This document shows positions 3,287 to 16,107 of a stretch of 64,000 nucleotides of DNA, piece after piece. The DNA is taken from positions 20,868,001 to 20,932,000 of the forward strand of contig OY756964.1 in the NCBI GenBank assembly GCA_963580455.1, in the 5' to 3' direction. The position numbers and the translations under genes were made by a program. The DNA comes from Euonymus europaeus (taxonomy: Eukaryota > Streptophyta > Magnoliopsida > Celastrales > Celastraceae). The notes beneath the pieces were generated by a model. That model did no database searches. It was not told the origin of the DNA and was given only the letters and a program-made list of their open reading frames with translations. Position 1 is the stretch's first letter. Every line of letters starts with the position of its first letter.

Positions 3287-4252
3287 ATGGCTTCTGCATC
3301 GAAGAAGGAGATGGATCGGATCAAGGGACCATGGAGTCCCGAAGAGGACGAGTTGTTACGGAGACTGGTTCAGAGCTACGGACCGAGAAACTGGTCACTG
3401 ATAAGCAAATCGATTCCTGGTCGATCCGGTAAGTCATGTCGACTGCGGTGGTGCAACCAGCTCTCGCCTGAGGTTGAGCACCGGCCTTTTACTCCCGAAG
3501 AGGATGAGACCATAGTCAGAGCCCACGCTCGTTTCGGAAACAAATGGGCTACAATCGCCCGCCTCCTCAATGGCCGTACCGATAACGCTATCAAGAACCA
3601 CTGGAACTCCACCTTGAAGCGCAAATGCTCCTCCCTCTCGGAGGACCTAACTGATGACTTGCATCCAAACCAGCCTCCTCTCAAGAGATCCGCAAGTGCG
3701 GGTGCGGGCACAATAATATCGGCTCTGAACTTGAACGCGGGTAGCCCATCCGGATCCGAATTGAGTGATTCCAGTTTGCCTGGTATGTCATTTTCATCCG
3801 TATACAGACCTCTGGCAAGAACCAGCTCGTTCGTTCCCATGGAATCGTCTTCTTCTGTTACGGATCCGCCTACCTCGCTCAGCCTCTCGCTTCCGGGATC
3901 CGATTCGTGCGAGGTTATAAACCATACCCTCGGGTCAGGATCCATTCATGGTTCGAGCGTGGCGGAATTGGTACAATTACAGATTCCGCCAGCACCTGTA
4001 CCCTTGAATCAAGAGGTGGGAGCTGCACAAACTCAAACTAGGCAAAACAATGAGTTAGGGCTTGAGAAGCAGTTCTTCAATGAAGAGTTCTTGGCAGTTA
4101 TGCAAGAGATGATAAGGAAGGAAGTAAGAAACTACTTTTCTGGGGTTGATCAGAACGGTCTTTGTATGCCAAATGATGCTATTAGTATCGAGAATGCTGT
4201 GGTTAGGAGGATTGGAGTTAGCAAGATCGACTGGGGGAAGATTAGTCACTAA
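3287..4252 (+). CDS. R2R3-MYB transcription factor, subgroup 22 (MYB44/MYB70/MYB73/MYB77-like)
   Basis: Nuclear DNA-binding regulator of 321 residues on a single exon, as is usual for subgroup 22. Repeat R2 spans about residues 14-59 with Trp at 16, 36 and 55. Repeat R3 spans about 65-113, with Phe68 in place of the first Trp and Trp at 87 and 106, the standard plant pattern. The short basic stretch KRK follows R3. Downstream are three subgroup-22 features: the [12 protein letters not shown] motif (152-163), an LSLSL-type EAR repression motif (about 197-202) and the C-terminal [19 protein letters not shown] motif (266-284). In Arabidopsis this subgroup acts in abscisic acid, auxin and stress responses, and the EAR motif recruits co-repressors; transfer of those roles here is inference. 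The start chosen is the first ATG before R2. The exact paralogue cannot be fixed by eye. Confidence 0.95.
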
Positions 4253-4943: not shown

Positions 4944-4952
4944 GATCTTCTT
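4944..4952. repeat. Target site duplication of MULE-1, left copy
   Basis: GATCTTCTT directly precedes the left inverted repeat and is repeated exactly at 13979-13987 after the right one. Nine bases is the size typical for Mutator-like insertions. Confidence 0.95.
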
Positions 4953-5065
4953 GGGTTTTTTGGAAAAATGACCCCCCTTTTCATAATATTTGGAGATCTA
5001 ACCCCACCTCTCATTCTATCTAAAGTTTAACCCTTTTGTCAAAGGAAAAGACGCTGCTGCCCTTA
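4953..5065 (+). repeat. MULE-1 left terminal inverted repeat
   Basis: 113 bp starting GGGTTTTTTGGAAAAATG. It matches the reverse complement of 13866-13978 except at two positions (one C/A near 4977 and one C/T near 5032, by eye). Long, highly similar TIRs are typical of autonomous MULE families and normally contain the transposase binding site. Confidence 0.95.
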
Positions 5066-5899
5066 CACGTCTTTTGATGCACGTTCCCTCCAAGAAAACC
5101 CTAGAACCCATGAAAACCAGCCTGCAGCTTGCTCGGCTCTTCCTCTCTCTTCCTCCATGTCTCGCACCTCTCAAGCTTCGAAGTGAGGTAGATCTCTCAC
5201 CTCGTTCAGCATCTGTCTCCCAGAAAGGATCCTAACCTCTGGAACAAGGACCGAACGCAAGCTCCGTGTTCGATTGGACTAACATACCAGTGCTCAACGT
5301 CATTTCTATGTGTCCAGCACTCCATCCTTTCTCGGACTACTTATCCAAAGCTCCGAAGCTTCATCTGTCGTTGGACATCTTGTCCTCAGTTTTTGTTTGC
5401 CTTCTAATTTTGTTTTGAGGAGGAATATCACTAAACTAAGGTTAGTCTGGTGCATTTGGTTTTGAGAACTGTCATACAACCGAACGATACAAAGTGAAAT
5501 ATTTATTTGATAAATGCATGTATTGTTCATCCAGAAGTAGTTTCGTTCAGAAAATTTTTTCGTTGACAAGTAGCTTTAACAATCGTTGACAAGTTGTTTT
5601 ATTCTCGTTGAAATGGGTTAATGTTTTCGTTGAGAAATATGTTTAAGCTTGTTTATCTGTCTTTTTTTTTTCGTTGATAAATAGTTTTATTTTCGTTTAT
5701 ATATGTCAATTTTTTCGTTGGGAAATATGTTTGAAATTATTTTCGTTTATCCCAGATAACCATTTGGTTGATAAATATCTATATACTTTTTGTTTAGAAC
5801 TATATGTATTTTTGGTTTATAATTATGTTCATGTAAGTGTTATGTTAAGGACTGTGTATAAATTTTTCGTTGACTACTTGTTATCTTTGTGATTCAGAA
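5066..5899 (+). other. MULE-1 leader of the transposase gene
   Basis: No supported protein. The first 270 bp are less AT-rich and CT-rich, as in a transcribed leader. From about 5554 onward the sequence becomes T-rich and is studded with variants of CGTTGATAAA and CGTTGACAAG on the + strand (for example 5671-5681 and 5768-5775). The run ends at a TTCAG-type acceptor just before the ATG at 5900, so part of it may be a 5' UTR intron. Confidence 0.55.
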
Positions 5900-7746
5900 A
5901 TGGAGGAGGTTAGCATATTGGTACGCTATTGTGGCTCTTGGGAACGGGTTGGAGTCAGTTATGCGTATAAAGGTGGGAAGAGTAAGGGTTTGATCATTCC
6001 AAATGATATTTCGTATGACCAATTATTGGATATGGTGTATGAATTGACGGGAAAAGATCGTGAAACATACAATGTTCAATTGAAGTACATTTACAATGTC
6101 CATGGTCCAACTGAGCCCGTTGAGATTGAGAGTAATAAGGACGTCCGCTTCTTCGTTTGATGCAATAGCGACAGGAGCATACCTGGAACATCTCTATGTG
6201 TTACAGTCACTGATAGAGACGTATCTGACGATGCTAATGATCTGGAATTTGATTTGAATGACTACCGATATGATATTGGGTTTACAGATTTGGTGGATGA
6301 TCCGGCCGAAGTTGGATGCAGCAGGAACATGGAGGATCTTAATGATCCTCAAATACATGGATCAGAATTTAACGCAAATTATCATTCAGCTGGTGGAATC
6401 GACGCTTCTAATTCTATTAGTAAGTCACAAAGTTGTGGTAATGCGATATCCTCCAACCAACATCTTGTACTTGATGATGCATCTACCATTTTGAAAGTCG
6501 GAGAAATATTTCCAGACAAAAAGAGTCTGTTAAAAAAGTTATGCATTCATGCTCTTCATTTGCACTTTGAATTCAAAGTGCATAAATCGACAAAAATTCT
6601 TTTTGTTGTTAAATGCAAAGTAGATGACTGCAAGTGGTGGCTTCGAGCAACCAGAGTTAAGGATACATCTTTTTTCATGATCAAGGTATTTCGGGATAGC
6701 CATTTGTCTTCCTCTTGTTTTGAATATAATAATGCTCGACAAGCGACAGGATAGGTTGTGGGAGAATGCATCAAATCTAAATATGAGGGAGTTAGCTGTA
6801 TTTACAGGCCAAAGGACATTGTGAAGGATTTCGAGAGAGTGCATGGAGTTGCCATCAGTTATGATAAAGCTTGGCGGGCAAGGGAAAGTGCACTACATTC
6901 ACCGCATGGTACGCCGGAACAATCTTTTGCAGAATTATCTTCATTTTTTGCAAAATTGGAATCAAAAAATCCAGGTACAGTAACACATATTAAGTCTGAC
7001 TCTTGCAATCGTTTCAAATATTGCTTTATGGCACTTGGTCCATCGTTAAGAGGTTTTCGTACTTGTATAAGACCTGTAATTTGCGTCGATGGAACTCATT
7101 TGAAGGGTAAATATCGTGGAACATTATTCGTTGCCACATGTTTAGATGGAAACAACCAGGTATATCCTTTGGCTTTCGGGGTTGGTGATTCAGAAAATGA
7201 TGATGCGTGGCAATGGTTTTTTGAAAAATTGAATGCAGCTATTGGATGCATTGAATCACTTGTTTTCATTTCGGATAGAAATGGTAGTATTGAAAAAGGA
7301 ATTCGTAGAGTGTTTCCTGATGCCAAACATGGTATTTGCATGTATCACCTTGGTCAGAATTTGAAGGCAAGAAAATTTAGTGACTCCGTCATCCCTGTAT
7401 TCTACAAGGCAGCCAAGACATACAATCAGATGGAGTTCCACCAGATTATGAACCAGATACGTAGATTTGATTCAGGTAATGTTTTCAATTATTTGACGGA
7501 AGCAGGTGTTCACAAATGGTCTCGCGCTTATTTTCCCGGAGAACGGTATAATATCATGACTATCAACATTGCTGAATGCCTGAATGGAATATTAAGGGAT
7601 GCTCGCAGCTTACCTATTACAAGGTTGATGGATCATTTGCAATCTTTATTACAGCGATGGTTTCATGATAGACGCTTAGTAGCTGTTGAGATGAAAAGCG
7701 AGTTCACGGACTATTATGATAAAGTATCTGAAGAAAGAAGGGACAG

Positions 7747-8304
7747 GTATGTAATTTTCAGATCATTATTTCATATTTTATCGTTGACAAACTCTCGTTG
7801 AAAGTACTTATCGTTGATAAATGGGTCAATTTTTGGTTGATAAGTTCGTAATTATGGTTGATATCCGAGTCACATGCCAGACATGTCTGAAACGACCAAG
7901 TCATAAGGTTGATAAACTCTCGTTGAAAGTACTTATCGTTGATAAATGGGTCAATTTTTGGTTGATAAGTTCGTAATTATGGCTGATATCCGAGTCACAT
8001 GCCGGACATGTCTGAAACGACCAAGTCGTAAGGTTGATAAACTCTCGTTGAAAGTACTTATCGTTGATAAATGGGTCAATTTTTGGTTGATAAGTTCGTA
8101 ATTATGGCTGATATCCGAGTCACATGCCGGACATGTCTGAAACGACCAAGTCGTAAGGTTGATAAACTCTCGTTGAAAGTACTTATCGTCGATAAATGGG
8201 TCAAATTTTGGTTGATAAGTTCGTAATTATGGTTGATATCAGAATGTTATAATTTATATAACTAAGTGCTCTTCTACTGTTATGTTGTTATAATAAATTT
8301 ACAG
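7747..8304 (+). other. Transposase intron filled by tandem repeats
   Basis: A 558-bp intron between the DDE core and the SWIM finger. Donor AG/GTATGT and acceptor TTACAG/A keep the frame. Most of it (about 7784-8240) is a tandem array; the last 60 bp are an AT-rich acceptor region. Confidence 0.85.
7784..8240 (+). repeat. 125-bp tandem array carrying GTTGATAA
   Basis: A 125-bp unit repeated about 3.6 times; the landmark TCGTTGATAAATGGG recurs at 7811, 7936, 8061 and (as TCGTCGATAAATGGG) 8186. Each unit has up to three GTTGATAA cores plus GACATGTC, a short palindrome. Units 2 and 3 are nearly identical, so the array expanded recently. It lies entirely in the intron. Confidence 0.95.
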
Positions 8305-8758
8305 AGCCAGAGTAATGACTGTAGAGCCTATTACTATACATTCTTTTCTTGTGAAAGACGGTGATGTTGGAGGACAAGTAGATTTGTCCAGTAAATCGTG
8401 CACTTGCAGAGTTTTCGATCTCGATCATATGCCATGCGTCCACGCTTTTGCAGCATGTAGAGCTAGAAAGATACCAACAGTTCCCTTGTGTTCGCCTTAC
8501 TACCGTACAGACATGCTTGTCCTTGCGTATGCAGAACCAGTAAACCCTGTTTTGAGTTCAGAAAATAGTGTATCGGTTGATGACGTCAGAGAGTTGCTCC
8601 CACCAGAAACTAAGAGAAAAAGCGGAAGGCCGAAGAAGAATCGAATACCGTCGTCCGGAGAGCGAAAGCCTAAAAGAAAATGCAGTCGCTGCAATCGAGA
8701 TGGTCACAACCGTCAAACATGCAGTGAGCCCATTAATCTGCAATCTGGCACGTCATAA

Positions 8759-9029
8759 TCTGTATTCGTATTCGTAGGTAATTATTTTAAAGGATATTTC
8801 TCCCTGGTTGATAACTAATGTTATATATATGTAGTTGATAACTACTTTCTCGAATTTGTTATATGTATTTTCGTTGATAAAAATAGATGTGTGGGTTGAG
8901 ATGTGTCGTTAAGCACATTTATTTCTCGTTGATATTTTTCTAAAACTGTCCACAATCAACACATAACATAACAGATTAACAAATCACTGTCAAATATTTT
9001 GCTTCAAATGTACATAAGCATAATCAAAA
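8759..9029. other. MULE-1 centre between convergent genes
   Basis: 270 bp between the stop codons of the convergent transposase and protease genes. It holds three further + strand GTTGATAA copies (about 8806-8882), then AT-rich DNA where both transcripts probably end. The orientation of the motif switches between here and about 9650. Confidence 0.7.
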
Positions 9030-9630
9030 CTAACTACCCAACATCACATTTTTCCATGTCTCCACAGCGAATTTTTTCCTGAGAAACTGCATGTCCTGAG
9101 CCTTCAACATCGTAATGTCCTTACCAGCACTTAGAATTTCAATGATTTTAATGCAGAAAATACCACAGTCGGAACTGGAAAAATTAAAAGAAAAATAGTG
9201 GATGTTAGTTATGACGTTGGATTTTTATTGTATTTCAAATAAAGTTACGCAACACTTACCCATTATCTTGCTGCGGAACATCAGAGGGACGCTCAACTGG
9301 CCATGGAGAGCCGTCAACGATAATACTTGCACGCACTAGAATTATAGGAATTAATTCAGATAATGGCTTCATCTCGGTGTTGAACTTCTCCTGTCTTGTG
9401 TGTTTTACAAGAGAGTCATAGCAAACAATCTTCTTCTCAACCATATCGATGCAACCAGCAGCCCAATGATCAGAAGTAATATTTATTGGAAAATAAATCT
9501 TTTCCAACTTCGACCAGGATTCAGTTCCCCTCTTTGATCCGTTGACAAAAGATAAAAGACGATTGTCATTGTCCCATTTTAATGGATTTGTGTCTTCTAG
9601 ATATAGTTTATGTCTGATCTGGACATATGA

Positions 9631-9843
9631 CTGGAAGTAATAGAAATTTGTCAACCAGAATAAACGAGAATGAAGTATTTTATCAACCAGAATAAAAGAG
9701 AATGAAGTATTTTATCAACCAGAATAAACGAGAATAAAGTAGTTTATCAACGAGAATAAAGTAGTTTATCAACGAGAATAAAGTAGTTTTTCAACCAGAA
9801 TAAAGTAGTTTTTCAACCTATATAAATGAGAATAATGACTTAC
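9631..9843 (-). repeat. Intron with 32/22-bp tandem repeats
   Basis: This protease intron (donor GTAAGT at 9843, acceptor TTCCAG at 9631) is largely a tandem array of TCAACCAGAATAAACGAGAA-like units. About three have a 32-bp spacing and several more a 22-bp spacing, most carrying TTATCAAC on the + strand. The unit differs from the 125-bp array in the transposase intron, so the arrays arose separately around the same core. Confidence 0.85.
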
Positions 9844-10299
9844 AAAGAACGTGGTATCCATAATCGCACATTTTTGTGTGAAAATATCTGCATTTCCAGC
9901 TAATCTCTTACGTATTATATCCATAGCCACATCAAGATGCTGAAGAAAGATGTAAATCATCATACATTTGTAATTAAAAATAGTATGACAAAATGAAGAA
10001 CAATACGTACCGTATCCAATAACCATTTGCTTTGGTCCATCACAGTATCGAACCATTCTTTCGTTGCATCACATACATTGACATCTATGGTCTTATCCTT
10101 GTTCACGGGATTCATGTAGAATTCATCCATTTCTATTTCCCATTCTTTTGGGTATTCTGAAAGTGGGTTAAATTCTAGAAATTGTTGCGGCTTTCTCTTC
10201 TTCTTTGTGGGATCAACGTACGGTGACACCTGATAGGGGCCCCTCTTTTTTATCTGTTTACCATGAACACCAGTGTTTTCAGTTGCCAAGTTTGCCAAC

Positions 10300-10960
10300 A
10301 ACTGCAATTTCTCGTCATCTGTTTCTTCATCATCAACTGCTTCACCAACCTGATCCTCTGTCTTCTGAACTTCAGCAACAGATTCCTCAACCTTATCCAC
10401 TGCAGATTTATCGACCTCATCAGCAGATGATTTTTGGACCTTATCAACCTCAATACCTTCAGCAGCCTCACCATAAGCGTCTTTATCAACCTCCACACCT
10501 GTGTTATCAACCTCAATATTAGATTCATCAACCTCACCTACAGCTGCTTTATCAACATTCACAGTAGTGTTATCAACCTCAATCTTTCCTTCAGCAACCT
10601 CACCAACAGCGGCTTTATCAACCTTCACACCTGTGTTATCAACCTCAAAATTTCCTTCATCAACCTCACCCACAACAGTTTTTTCAAACTCCACAGCTGT
10701 GTTATCAACCACACCCACAACGTTAACAACTTCTTTTGCATCAGACTTCTCAACCTCATCCACAGCAGAGTTGTCAACCACGTCATTGATATCTTCTTCA
10801 AATCGCTCACCCATAACAGATTTATCAATCAAATCACCAGATTCTTTATCAACCGTAGCATCGGCGTCTTTATCAACCTCAGACTTCAAACTATCAACCT
10901 CGATAGTGGAGTTATCAACCTTAACAGAAGTGGTGTCAACCTCAACATTCACATTATCAT
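10300..10960 (-). repeat. In-frame repeat coding for Val-Asp-Asn/Lys units
   Basis: Within exon 2 of the protease gene the protein repeats units such as EVDNTGVKVDKAAVGEVDE about every 20 residues, very rich in Val, Asp and Glu. At DNA level many Val-Asp-(Asn/Lys) triplets use the same codons, GTT GAT AA(C/A), which is the GTTGATAA motif of the non-coding DNA. The segment looks like motif arrays made translatable in the minus direction. It separates the basic region from the protease domain and is predicted disordered and acidic. Confidence 0.85.
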
Positions 10961-11830
10961 CCTGATGAAACTTATCAGATGTTTTTTCCGTCTCGTACAT
11001 GGCATCCTTATTCTTATCATGTGGGGCAATGTAAAATTTCCAGAATCATCGTCAGTAGATTCAGATGATCCATCTTTTACTTGCCCAGCAATATTCGAAA
11101 CTACCTTATCTAACTCTCTTTTGGAGTTCTCATCCAGCTCTTCTTTCTCCCCTCCTCTATTTTTCTCATCCCCCTGTTTGAAATCTGTATTTTTACTATA
11201 TCCAGTCCTTCGCTTTTTCTCAATGTTTTGGCGCAAATTTTGTAGTGCTATGCGTTTCTTGCTCTCTAGATCCGCTGCCTCTTTTAGCGGACTCCCCTTA
11301 TCCTGCATCAATCGTGTGCTCCTCCTAAGTTGTTCTGTCTGAATACGCTCCCCCCTTGGTTTCCTTACAACCTTTCTTACAGTCTTCCTCTTCTCCATTA
11401 TCTTTGTCTCATCTACTTTTCCGCTGTCCTTCTTGGATGATGACCCCATGTGAGCAGATTTTGAGACAGAAATATCCCTCACAACCATCTTTTCTTTCAT
11501 CTGTGAATTTTTCAACTCTAAAATTTCCTGCTCAACCTTTTCGAGTCTTACGGAGATATCATCAATCTTATTTTCGAAAATGGAAAGATTTTCCCTTACC
11601 ATTCCATTGATCAAGGCACTCACCCTCAGTCCCAGCTCCGTAGACTTCAAATCATCCACAATTTTGGCTGGATCTTCATTAGGTTCTGACCTGTTCAGTC
11701 TTTTTGCCTTATTCTTCAACATTTTTTCTTTACTCGACCTCTTCACTACAACTTCAGTGTCAACCATCAAATTACTTGTGTACTCAAGAGAGGCCTCCGC
11801 CTCTGTAGGAACCATATCAATCACTTCCAC

Positions 11831-12020
11831 CTGAGTAAGAAGACCTTAAGTTATCAACAAAAATCATGTATATTATCTACGGAAAATATTATACTATAAA
11901 CGAAAAATACTGCATTATCAACGAGAACAACTATGTTATCAACGAGAACTACTAAGTTATCAACAAAAAATACTAACGAATCAACGAAAACCATTAAGTT
12001 ACCAACGAAATTTTTTTTAC
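11831..12020 (-). other. Protease intron 1 with motif copies
   Basis: Intron with donor GTAAAA after Gly-Leu-Lys and acceptor TACTCAG before Val-Glu-Val. It holds four exact TTATCAAC copies followed by AAAA or GAGAA, and near variants. Confidence 0.8.
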
Positions 12021-12890
12021 CTTTAATCCTTCAAGCAACTCAATAACAGTCTTCGATTTTGGTGCTTTTGTAGATGTCCACTTTAACATCCTCGGAATCA
12101 ATGTGACATCAACACAGTTTGCTAGATTTTCAGCAATGGAAGGAACAACCTCGTATGCCCATATCTGGAAGGCTAGAGGAAATCCTTGAAGATTGTACCA
12201 CTCGAATTCCGTTCTTGATTTCTTCAACTTGTCGGCGCGTCCAACAAGTGAATTACTAAGTTGTTCCACTGTTTTCTTGTAGCACAAAGTACCCCAAGGA
12301 TACTTGTTGAAAGAGTCAAAATGCTCAACCAGCCTGAAAAAATCAACATCAACAAGCAGCTTCGAATCTCTACCCAGAAGCACAGTCTCAAGAAAGTAGA
12401 CTAGTGCTAGTTTGACCACATCGTCTGGGTCATCGCATTTCATGAAAACTTTTTGTAACTCCGCACAAGATATAGAAAATCTTCCTCCAAAATATTTTTC
12501 TTGCAACCCAACCTCAGGTTGCCCACCATACTCTTTCTCTACCATTTCTAGGAATTCAGACATCTCTGGAATGGCATGACAATTCAGGCCTGTTATCATG
12601 TTGAATTCCCGTATGGAAAAAATAGTCTTATGTCCACCAATATTAAATATCATCCTCCCAGCCTGTTCATCCTCATCTGATTGCACCTGTCGTAAAAGTA
12701 TTTGGTGAACAATCTGAGCAGCCCATTTGATGTTTTTCAAATGGATGAACTGGCCGAAGCATGATCCCTTAAACGTTGTAAGTTGATCATCGTTCAACTT
12801 ACTTTTGATGTCGCTAAGGGTTTCAAAAACCCTTGCGAAAGACAAAACCTTAGCACCGAATCTCTTAGTTGGAGGAATTTTGAATTCCAT

Positions 12891-13865
12891 TTATGAACTC
12901 TGCATACAAACTCATGTGGTTATGAGGCCAAAAATTAAGTTATCAACCTAAGTAAGAAAATCTATAAACCTAAAAATAAGACATTTTATCAACATAAAAA
13001 TCTGTGTTGTCGACCTAAGTGACAAGAATAAACAAATAATACACAAAAAATTAATACAGTTATCAACTGAAACTTTGGGTTAGTTATTACATAAATACAT
13101 GCACTTGGAGATTGCAAAATTTATCAACGAAAACAAATATTACAAAAGTTATCAACCTAAACAAATCTTTACCAACGTACAAAAACAATTTTCTAAACGA
13201 GAAAATTATACGGTTATCAACGAAAACAATGAATTACCATCATGTATAAATAAAGTTATCAACGAAAACTTAATATTGTTATCAACGAAAATTTAATACT
13301 TTAATCAACGAAAAGTATGAGTTATCAACGTTAATATGTTTCTTTCTATTCCCGAAAAATAATACACTTATCCACCAAAAGTATAAAACTTTCACTCAGT
13401 AACTCAGAAAACACTCTCATATAATCAAATAAAGGAGAGTTGTATGAGTGTGTATGAAACATCAGTTGAAATCTTTCATCATAAAAGCATCTAACGCACA
13501 CACGAGAACTATCGATTTTCCAAACGAAATGTAACAGATAAAACAAATGTAACAGATAAACCATCAACATAAGCCAATAATTTAGGGCAAAATGAACCAA
13601 CAGTGACACCATAAGATACAGAAGATAAATGACAGTACAGAAATAAAGGAGATGAAACTAACCTTGCTTCGTAGTCTCTCTTGTTCGTCGCGAAACAAGT
13701 ATACCCACCGAAGTTCGTCGAAATGATGTAACCAGAGGAAGAAGAAGAAGGAAGGAAGAAGAAGGAAGAAGAAGAGTTGTCGAAATGAAAAACAAAAAAC
13801 TGTTGAAATGACGTAAAACCGCATCCCAAGGCAGTTACTATTCATATTTACAGTTTTTTAATGTT
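12891..13865 (-). other. MULE-1 leader of the protease gene
   Basis: No supported protein. About nine exact TTATCAAC copies lie between 12940 and 13330, most followed by GAAAAC or CTAA, spaced irregularly at roughly 30-60 bp. Further right is a GAA/GGA-rich stretch (about 13735-13780, read as CTT-rich on the gene strand), as in a transcribed leader. The layout mirrors the leader at the other end of the element. Confidence 0.65.
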
Positions 13866-13978
13866 TAAGGGCAGCAGCGTCTTTTCCTTTGACAAAAGAG
13901 TTAAACTTTAGATAGAATGAGAGGTGGGGTTAGATCTCCAAATATTATGAAAATGGGGGTCATTTTTCCAAAAAACCC
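13866..13978 (-). repeat. MULE-1 right terminal inverted repeat
   Basis: 113 bp, reverse complement of 4953-5065 with two differences. It ends in CCAAAAAACCC and is followed directly by the second copy of the 9-bp duplication. Confidence 0.95.
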
Positions 13979-13987
13979 GATCTTCTT
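13979..13987. repeat. Target site duplication of MULE-1, right copy
   Basis: GATCTTCTT, identical to 4944-4952. Confidence 0.95.
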
Positions 13988-14679: not shown

Positions 14680-16107
14680 CAGAGGCGAATCTAGTTTAAA
14701 ATCATTGGGGGATTGTATTTTTTATAGAGCAGTGTTAAACAACCCAAATTTTTATAGCTCAATATTAACCCAAGTCTACATGACATGCTTTGTAAACATA
14801 TGAGATGAAAAACTAAAATTTTAGAAAATAAAATATATTTTTTGAAATTTCACAGCATATATATATTTTTTTTTATTTTTTTTAAATGAAAGTTTAAAAC
14901 ACTTTATTTCTTAAAATAAATATTAGATTTCGAAAAAAAATCCAGTATCAATAAGTAAAAACTATCCAACAAGATCCATCACCGATAGGTTTTATTCAGT
15001 CATTTTTAATTACATTATTTTTTGTACTAATATGTGAATTACGTAAGTTTCAGTGTTTATTTATAGGTACTGATATGGGCTCGTACATCGATTTTCATAC
15101 GGTAACCTAAACTATAAGTGTTAAACCCTAAGGGGAACTAATACGCTAAACCCTAACGGGCTCGTGTATCGAATTTTCATGTTGTAACCTAAACAATAAG
15201 TGTAAACCTCAAGGGGGACGAATTCGCTAAATCCTAACGAACTTGAGTATTGAATTTTCATGTTGTAACCTAAAAAACTTGGATTTACTACTAAAATCAT
15301 AAATGTCCCAAGTGCTAAACTTTAGCTATTAAAACTTAACGGGTTAGGATACCAAACATAATTTCAATAAAAATGCAAAAAATGACAAATATATATTCTA
15401 CTATCATAGTGTCACAAAATTTCGACTCAAATAAACAGTTTACACATCATATTTAAAAGCCGCAATAAAAACTATTGAGAATGAGTTTTATTAAAAATAT
15501 TTTTACTCGCTGAGTTCGAATATGTAATTTTTTTTTCAAAACCTAACATGTATTATTAAAATTTGTTTATTAAAAAATAAATAAAAAATGTGCTTAATTA
15601 ATTTTTGAAAAATTCCAACATGACCCACTTACATGGAGTGTCATGTAGACTTAAATTGAGTTAGGCAAATAAAAGTTGGATTCTAAAAACATTTTTGTTT
15701 TTTATGTAATGGGCTTTAGGTACCATAGACTCATGCAAAAAAGAAAATAAGCCTCCAATGAAAATTAATTTAGCTTCCAATGAAATTGTGAGATTAGAGG
15801 TGTCTTCGTTTTTAGTCTCACTGCTCTATAATTAGAGATTTTTCTGCTTTTTCTAATTTTCAAGCTATTCTATATATGTCATTTTTTAAACCACAATTCT
15901 TTACAAAAGAAATACAAAACTCGAAAGTACGGACTTGAAACTATTATTACTAATGATATATTATGGTGATATGTAGTATTTTATTATTTGAAATTTATAA
16001 TTATTGATTTTCATGCCATAAAAATAATAATAAAAAATCGGAGGCGTTGAACTTGTACCAAAACCCCTCATGCCCCCAATGAATTTGGATCCTGGATCCA
16101 CCACTAG
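14680..16107. mobile_element. Non-autonomous hAT-like element
   Basis: The left end reads CAGAGGCGAATCTAG and continues to CATTGGGGG. The reverse complement of the right end reads CTAGTGGTGGATCCAGG and continues to CATTGGGGG. These diverged inverted ends match the CAGnGGCGGA pattern of plant hAT transposons. The 1.4-kb interior is AT-rich with no transposase and includes an 81-bp tandem repeat. I see no clear 8-bp duplication, so the exact ends are approximate. Confidence 0.6.
15077..15290. repeat. 81-bp degenerate tandem repeat with telomere-like AACCCTAA
   Basis: About 2.5 copies of an 81-bp unit beginning GGGCTCGT(A/G)(C/T)ATCG, at 15077, 15158 and about 15239. Each unit contains GTAACCTAAAC and one or two TAAACCCTAA-like blocks that resemble the plant telomere repeat. 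The third unit is the most diverged. Confidence 0.8.

Follow-up and report, generated by a model that had tools for sequence, protein, structure and literature searches.

Why does a single octamer, GTTGATAA, recur throughout one transposable element, on one strand in its left part and on the other in its right? The question is raised by a Mutator-like element (MULE) in a 64,000-nt stretch of the Euonymus europaeus genome (contig OY756964.1, positions 20,868,001 to 20,932,000), which we call the window and within which positions are counted. We consider it highly probable that the GTTGATAA array serves the element's own VANC-like protein as a family-specific target, in the manner of the VANDAL MULEs of Arabidopsis; the best reading of the element is a new VANDAL/KIU-like family with its own putative VANC target array.

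An octamer array in the sense of two convergent genes

The window contains 47 exact copies of GTTGATAA, against a mean of 3.72 in 100 shuffled versions (standard deviation 2.17, largest count 10). Forty-three of these lie inside the MULE, spanning 5673-13329, and four lie elsewhere; order-2 Markov versions of the element contain 0.89 on average and 6 at most (n=1000). These counts rule out a chance origin of the array. Fifteen copies are on the + strand, at 5673-8873, left of the point where the element's two genes converge, and 28 are on the - strand, at 9680-13322, right of it, with no exact copy running the wrong way (0/43), in agreement with a preliminary description of this locus that reported about 43 inward-facing copies, about 15 on + and about 28 on -. 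Sites with one mismatch follow the same pattern, with 12 on + and 2 on - in the left half of the element (12/14 on the expected strand) and 22 on - and 2 on + in the right half (22/24). In the flanks, one-mismatch sites have no clear strand bias (+/- counts of 4/6 on the left and 29/23 on the right). The preliminary description had proposed such comparisons with shuffled sequence and flanking DNA.

All 43 exact copies read in the sense of the gene that contains them or, for three copies, of the gene directly before, as had been noted from the sequence. In the + strand gene, which encodes the transposase, two copies and several near ones lie in a 5'-untranslated region (5'-UTR) intron predicted by a splice-site scan (5441..5897), ten lie in a predicted intron made up mostly of a 125-bp tandem unit in 3.7 copies (7747..8304, all +), and three lie just 3' of the stop (8807..8880). 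In the - strand gene, which encodes the VANC-like protein, nine lie in a 5'-UTR intron predicted in the same way (12900..13662), four in predicted intron 1, which has a 21-bp tandem unit (11831..12020), eleven in frame in exon 3 (10011..11006), and four in predicted intron 4, which has 32- and 22-bp tandem units (9631..9843), all on the - strand. Predicted introns therefore hold 29 of the 43 copies; in total 32 are non-coding and 11 coding. The earlier statement that the motif avoids the transposase exons is true of exact copies, of which there are none; four one-mismatch sites lie there (6605 and 8576 on +; 7446 and 7560 on -).

The VANC-like gene (9030..12890, - strand) has six exons and an open frame of 1,075 aa that ends at 9030, where the stop codon was checked; the exons were joined by eye from splice-like boundaries, and the introns are predicted from sequence. 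The spliced protein matches DUF1985 (PF09331, 7.9e-22), a domain that lies in exon 1 (12021..12890, E 1.4e-22), and has a Ulp1/C48 domain (PF02902, Peptidase_C48, 2e-36) at residues 867-1066 of the model. This protease region runs from the end of exon 3 to exon 6 and contains HW...D...DCG, and the C-terminal part of the protein aligns to yeast Ulp1 (1euv) via the HW and DCG regions. The nearest protein relatives found are in Tripterygium. In both leaders of the element the donor that scores best is AAG|GTTAGT, and an acceptor directly precedes the start codon.

The element itself is 9,026 bp long (4953-13978), larger than the 5554..13345 first assigned to it. It is bounded by terminal inverted repeats (TIRs) of 116 nt that are 97% complementary (4953..5068 on +; 13863..13978 on -), and these are flanked by matching 9-bp target-site duplications (TSDs), GATCTTCTT, at 4944..4952 and 13979..13987. 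The MURA-type transposase gene (5901..8758, + strand; exon limits approximate) was recognised by domain matches: it has DBD_Tnp_Mut, MULE and SWIM domains, a weak CCHC and a weak PB1-like N-terminus below the Pfam cut-off, and its MuDR-type matches are PF03108 (1.3e-12), PF10551 (5.3e-23) and SWIM (2.8e-07). With these domains, the long TIRs and a 9-bp TSD, within the 8-11 bp typical of MULEs, the element belongs to this group. Its description as complete stands for its structure and fails for the transposase frame, which an in-frame TAG (6752-6754) interrupts in the window copy; among the 15 full-length copies described below, this stop is missing from the same segment in 13, and in L017 the probe segment was not found. 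Outside the element, an intact open frame of 321 aa that looks R2R3-MYB-like by eye lies about 0.7 kb to its left (3287-4252), and a tandem repeat spaced at 81-82 bp lies to its right (15091-15299).

Conservation of the motif among copies and in a coding exon

From the genome (443 Mb, 30 contigs) we extracted 15 full-length copies, one of which is that of the window, together with two short copies. The preliminary description had proposed a search for related copies that lack the motif or its polarity; all 15 full-length copies retain both. In each of them the strands separate perfectly, for a total of 194 motifs on + followed by 445 on -, with 0 of 639 out of order; copies were oriented by motif majority, and the DUF1985 hit gives the same orientation in 15 of 15. 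The 9-bp TSD is perfect in 14 copies and has a 1-base offset in L024, and pairwise identity averages 99.4%, with a lowest value of 97.5%. The number of motifs in the left half varies from 6 to 19, and element length varies too. A 1.6-kb internally deleted copy, L013, retains the TIRs and eight motifs. DNA flanking the copies contains one minus-strand motif in L007 and three in L008. Among 30 partial DUF1985 loci (L026-L055), many of which come from these same copies, 29 carry motifs on a single strand, and in L044 10 motifs on + are followed by 6 on -. Triple clusters of GTTGATAA number 370 genome-wide, against 1 for the reversed control, and some of them, such as that at C3:12669571, belong outside this element's family. 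A second kind of repeat unit with GTTGATAA (GTTGATAACCATCATGTA...) is found outside the family at L008 700-1000, C3:12669571 and C3:12674911.

Motif sites vary less than the remainder of the element. Across 14 copies (reference copy excluded; exon limits approximate), variation affects 3 of 232 non-coding motif sites, compared with 86 of 1895 other internal non-coding sites (p 0.0085), and in coding sequence the counts are 0 of 88 and 177 of 5452. At 14 diverged loci, spanning for the most part the VANC-like half, 81 of 1295 non-coding motif bases differ (6.3%), compared with 1012 of 8075 others (12.5%); coding mismatch is 3.0% at the motif and 11.0% elsewhere.

Most GTTGATAA arrays are tandem units, with lengths of 21, 22, 23, 28, 32, 44, 66 and 125 bp, which have mainly the octamer or a near form of it in common. 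Helical phasing is reportedly a property of VANC proteins, and with spacings de-duplicated by hand a 10.5-bp phase is favoured in the non-coding arrays of the window (mean cosine 0.46, p 0.0016, 19 spacings) and in L056, one of the sister-family pieces described below (0.64, p 0.0001, 13 spacings). The phase is not favoured in the sister pieces L058 (0.07, 10 spacings) and L059 (-0.24, 7 spacings) or in the exon (0.18, 6 spacings). Pooled non-coding spacings give a mean cosine of 0.33 (p 0.0005, 49 spacings), and the phasing of the arrays is suggestive only.

The preliminary description had also noticed copies in one coding exon, which we identify as exon 3 of the VANC-like gene (11006-10011). 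This exon encodes 21 Val-Asp pairs, 11 of which are exact GTTGATAA in the frame GTT GAT AAn (Val-Asp-Asn/Lys), with neighbouring motifs spaced at 21, 24, 42, 45, 66 and 144 nt. In the window copy the valine codon is GTT in 18 of the 21 pairs and in 15 of 31 other valines, a bias that may come partly from repeat descent. In a pool of 12 loci out of the 14 (without L010 and L011, which have no difference), the third position of motif valines differed in 0 of 113 aligned cells, compared with 33 of 308 for other valines; for aspartates the counts were 9 of 113 and 35 of 204, a less clear result. The unvaried third positions of the motif valines speak for constraint at the DNA level, as if the DNA word itself were kept. 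Locus L047 (72% DUF1985 identity) has eight copies of GTTGATAA (three in the leader, one unmapped, two in intron 1, two in exon 3) together with nine sense and one antisense copies of GTTGAGAA, the sense copies being in exon 3 (six), just upstream and unmapped (two) and in intron 1 (one). A test of whether the coding array tracks the non-coding motif is therefore not clean, the valine positions speaking for it and L047 against. L055 has 12 copies of GTTGATAA and 4 of GTTGAGAA, and it is possible that L047 and L055 are intermediates between two motif families.

Different motifs, same sense, in sister families

Searching the genome with the DUF1985 exon returned many further matches at 39-53% identity, and the Pfam model added more (150 scored). 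We sampled four 2.6-kb pieces, L056-L059, three of which contain other motifs in the same sense: relative to DUF1985, GGTCGTGC is found 14 times in sense and 0 in antisense in L056, GGTTTAGA 12 times in sense and 0 in antisense in L058, and a motif common to L058 and L059 9 times in sense and 0 in antisense in L059. The leader arrays of these three pieces sit between donor-like and acceptor-like sites (by eye for L058 and L059). Clusters of sister motifs are abundant genome-wide, with 3643 pairs of GGTTGAGAA (41 in the reversed control), 466 pairs or triples of GGTTTAGAA (64) and 2250 pairs or triples of GGTCGTGCC (0). Sister families with different motifs still have a transposase core that is 57-70% identical. 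At least 36 of the transposase matches listed have an unbroken 819-aa frame, and the identical scores of many of these point to a recent burst; GGTCGTGCC arrays or L056 adjoin the matches at C1:27746633, C2:2883809 and C9:22515266.

Polarity of the sister motifs was read among the matches listed, which are the first 100 places per motif (300 in total) and come from C1-C4. Spans were scored from 1.5 kb upstream to 9 kb downstream of 15 DUF1985 places picked near clusters; 195 of the 300 motif places fell within such spans, and the other 105 were unscored. A re-run with 49 DUF1985 places of C1-C4, using all 100 rows for GGTTTAGAA and a subset, mainly array ends, for GGTTGAGAA and GGTCGTGCC, gave the same 13 spans. 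Two of these contain matches of neighbouring elements only (C3:10718690, four matches of C3:10711005; C2:2887403, seven opposite-strand matches upstream). In all 11 remaining spans the VANC-sense matches come first, and opposite-strand matches, if any, lie only beyond them. The strand switches in five of these spans (C2:23135188, C3:9835803, C1:10140788, C1:20625151 and C1:27742559), the switch in the first two resting on a single opposite-strand pair each, and a sixth switch was seen by eye in the element at C2:2878382-2886113, around the transposase at C2:2883809. Eight transposase hits were compared with the spans, and in 7 of the 7 spans that contain one, transposase and DUF1985 gene converge. 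Thus, in four DUF1985 MULE motif families, one seen in full and three from the matches listed, the arrays are in sense, lie mostly in predicted introns where this is readable, and switch strand at gene convergence.

The gene-sense motifs start with GGTY (GGTTGATAA, also CGTTGATAA; GGTTGAGAA, GGTTTAGAA and GGTCGTGCC), and the published VANC6 (AGTTGTCC/AC) and VANC21 (YAGTATTAY) motifs, as given in the parts of PMC5735166 compared, contain AGT. It is possible that an RGT core with a variable part is common to both sets.

A putative VANC target and its rivals

The preliminary description regarded an element-wide polarised array as without a known parallel in MULEs, a view that VANDAL MULEs, whose VANC proteins bind such motifs, contradict. 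According to the passages compared (Hosaka et al. 2017, PMC5735166), the motif YAGTATTAY is bound by VANC21 as double-stranded DNA, both in vitro and in vivo; dense motifs 'in the same orientation', in introns and leaders, mark the non-coding targets of VANC21; motif units are both gained and lost; the motifs of VANC6 are different; and tandem peptide motifs are frequent in VANC variable regions. The Euonymus element resembles VANDAL21/Hiun of Arabidopsis thaliana in having a transposase and a DUF1985 protein; dense same-orientation motifs in introns and leaders, mainly non-coding and specific to the family; tandem units of variable copy number; a related family whose motifs differ; and tandem peptide repeats in the VANC-like protein. 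It differs from VANDAL21 in its motif, GTTGATAA rather than YAGTATTAY, its Ulp1 domain, its 116-nt TIRs, its 11 coding motifs, and a strand switch at gene convergence that is not described for VANDAL21 in the passages compared. Ulp1-bearing VANCs (KIU, Kaonashi-Ulp1) recognise motifs of their own kind in non-coding DNA, according to the part of a review that we consulted (PMC13317346); the Euonymus element likewise has Ulp1/C48 in one gene with DUF1985 (spliced by eye). In the passages of PMC2528002 compared, KI-MULEs have a ULP domain reversed relative to mudrA, as here, and KI-MULEs and Vandals are described as non-TIR, unlike the Euonymus element; ULP-containing TIR-MULEs of melon and grapevine combine TIRs with a Ulp1 domain, in either orientation to the transposase, and the same passages do not mention motif arrays in them.

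In the model that we propose, the minus-strand gene encodes a DUF1985-Ulp1 protein whose binding to the dense GTTGATAA arrays, in the introns and the leaders of either gene, would strip silencing marks from them, such that the transposase and VANC-like genes stay expressed. Published studies of VANC21 and VANC6 are the basis on which we infer the binding, the loss of methylation and the pairing of motifs with proteins. Non-coding regions are also targets of RNA-directed DNA methylation, according to the part of PMC10398659 consulted. Related MULE families have motifs of their own, and each protein would accordingly relieve silencing in its family alone. A silencing-factor or protease-partner binding site was rightly listed among the candidates at the outset.

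Other explanations fit parts of these data. The motif could act in transcripts, in splicing, export or escape from small-RNA production, which would account for its presence on the sense strand in 43 of 43 exact copies, 29 of them in predicted introns, and for the sense orientation of the other motifs in the sampled sister families. We think this unlikely, because a common splicing or export factor would hardly allow the motif to change between families, and because VANC21 binds its motif as double-stranded DNA, as stated in the passages of PMC5735166 compared. It is also improbable that the arrays are functionless intron repeats generated by tandem slippage, with a polarity inherited from a few founding sites. 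Most arrays are indeed tandem units, tandem duplication preserves orientation, and only one or two bases separate GGTTGATAA, GGTTGAGAA and GGTTTAGAA, such that polarity could be an old inheritance; however, units of differing length have mainly the octamer or a near form in common, and variation is lower at octamer positions than elsewhere, also at the synonymous position of the valine codons in the exon.

Subterminal repeats bound by the transposase, in the style of hAT or CACTA elements, would fit arrays that face inward from both ends of an element with a MuDR-type transposase. The position and the turnover of the motif lead us to reject this candidate, which we rate as very improbable: the outermost exact copies are about 720 bp and about 650 bp inside the two ends, the arrays are not confined to subterminal DNA and run through introns and an exon toward the centre (29 of 43 copies in predicted introns, 11 in the exon), and the motif differs between families at 57-70% transposase-core identity. 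Finally, GTTGATAA contains a GATAA core, presumably readable as an I-box or GATA-factor site, and might serve a host transcription factor; the sister-family motifs in the same genome lack GATAA, which leads us to reject such a site and leaves a host factor with hardly any plausibility.

The VANC target model alone does not explain the position of the motif on the sense strand. Several observations weigh against the array being a VANC target of the kind described. No motif was found in the sister piece L057 in a first k-mer scan, and this piece has GGTTGAGAA-like sites only near its end; the short copy L025 has only two motifs left. At the most diverged loci the difference in conservation is small (16/85 at motif bases and 124/559 at others in L047; 15/108 and 138/677 in L050), and because copies and loci are related, the p values above overstate independence, the pooled ones being indicative only. 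The exon of L047 has mostly GTTGAGAA and its leader GTTGATAA, such that motif and protein are not simply locked. Coding sequence holds 11 of the 43 motifs, in contrast to the mainly non-coding location described for those of VANC21. Lastly, VANDALs are usually described as having no or degenerate TIRs, whereas the Euonymus TIRs are 116 nt long and 97% complementary; some VANDAL-related elements do have TIRs, according to the part of PMC6446971 consulted, and their absence is therefore not strictly defining.

Three features go beyond the literature compared and are less ordinary: a sense polarity common to four motif families (three of them read from the matches listed), arrays that lie chiefly in predicted introns, and an array in the VANC-like exon. 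The published 'same orientation' statement, in the passages of PMC5735166 compared, covers part of the first. As a tentative and somewhat doubtful extension of the VANC target model, we suggest that VANC-type anti-silencing could be direction-dependent and tied to transcription, and that the target DNA could also be written into the VANC-like gene as Val-Asp-Asn/Lys repeats held by DNA-level selection. Oriented binding may be needed, for example, if bound VANC must not block the polymerase or acts downstream of it.

The Euonymus element adds to the DUF1985-Ulp1 MULEs a family with a clear predicted target motif, and because at least three other motifs occur in DUF1985 families of the same genome, co-evolution of motif and protein is testable inside one genome. 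Sense polarity across families and the coding-exon array are clues to how VANC binding removes silent marks and why VANCs carry peptide repeats; if the extension outlined above is true, the tandem peptide repeats that VANC proteins can have would be explained by a target motif encoded in an exon.

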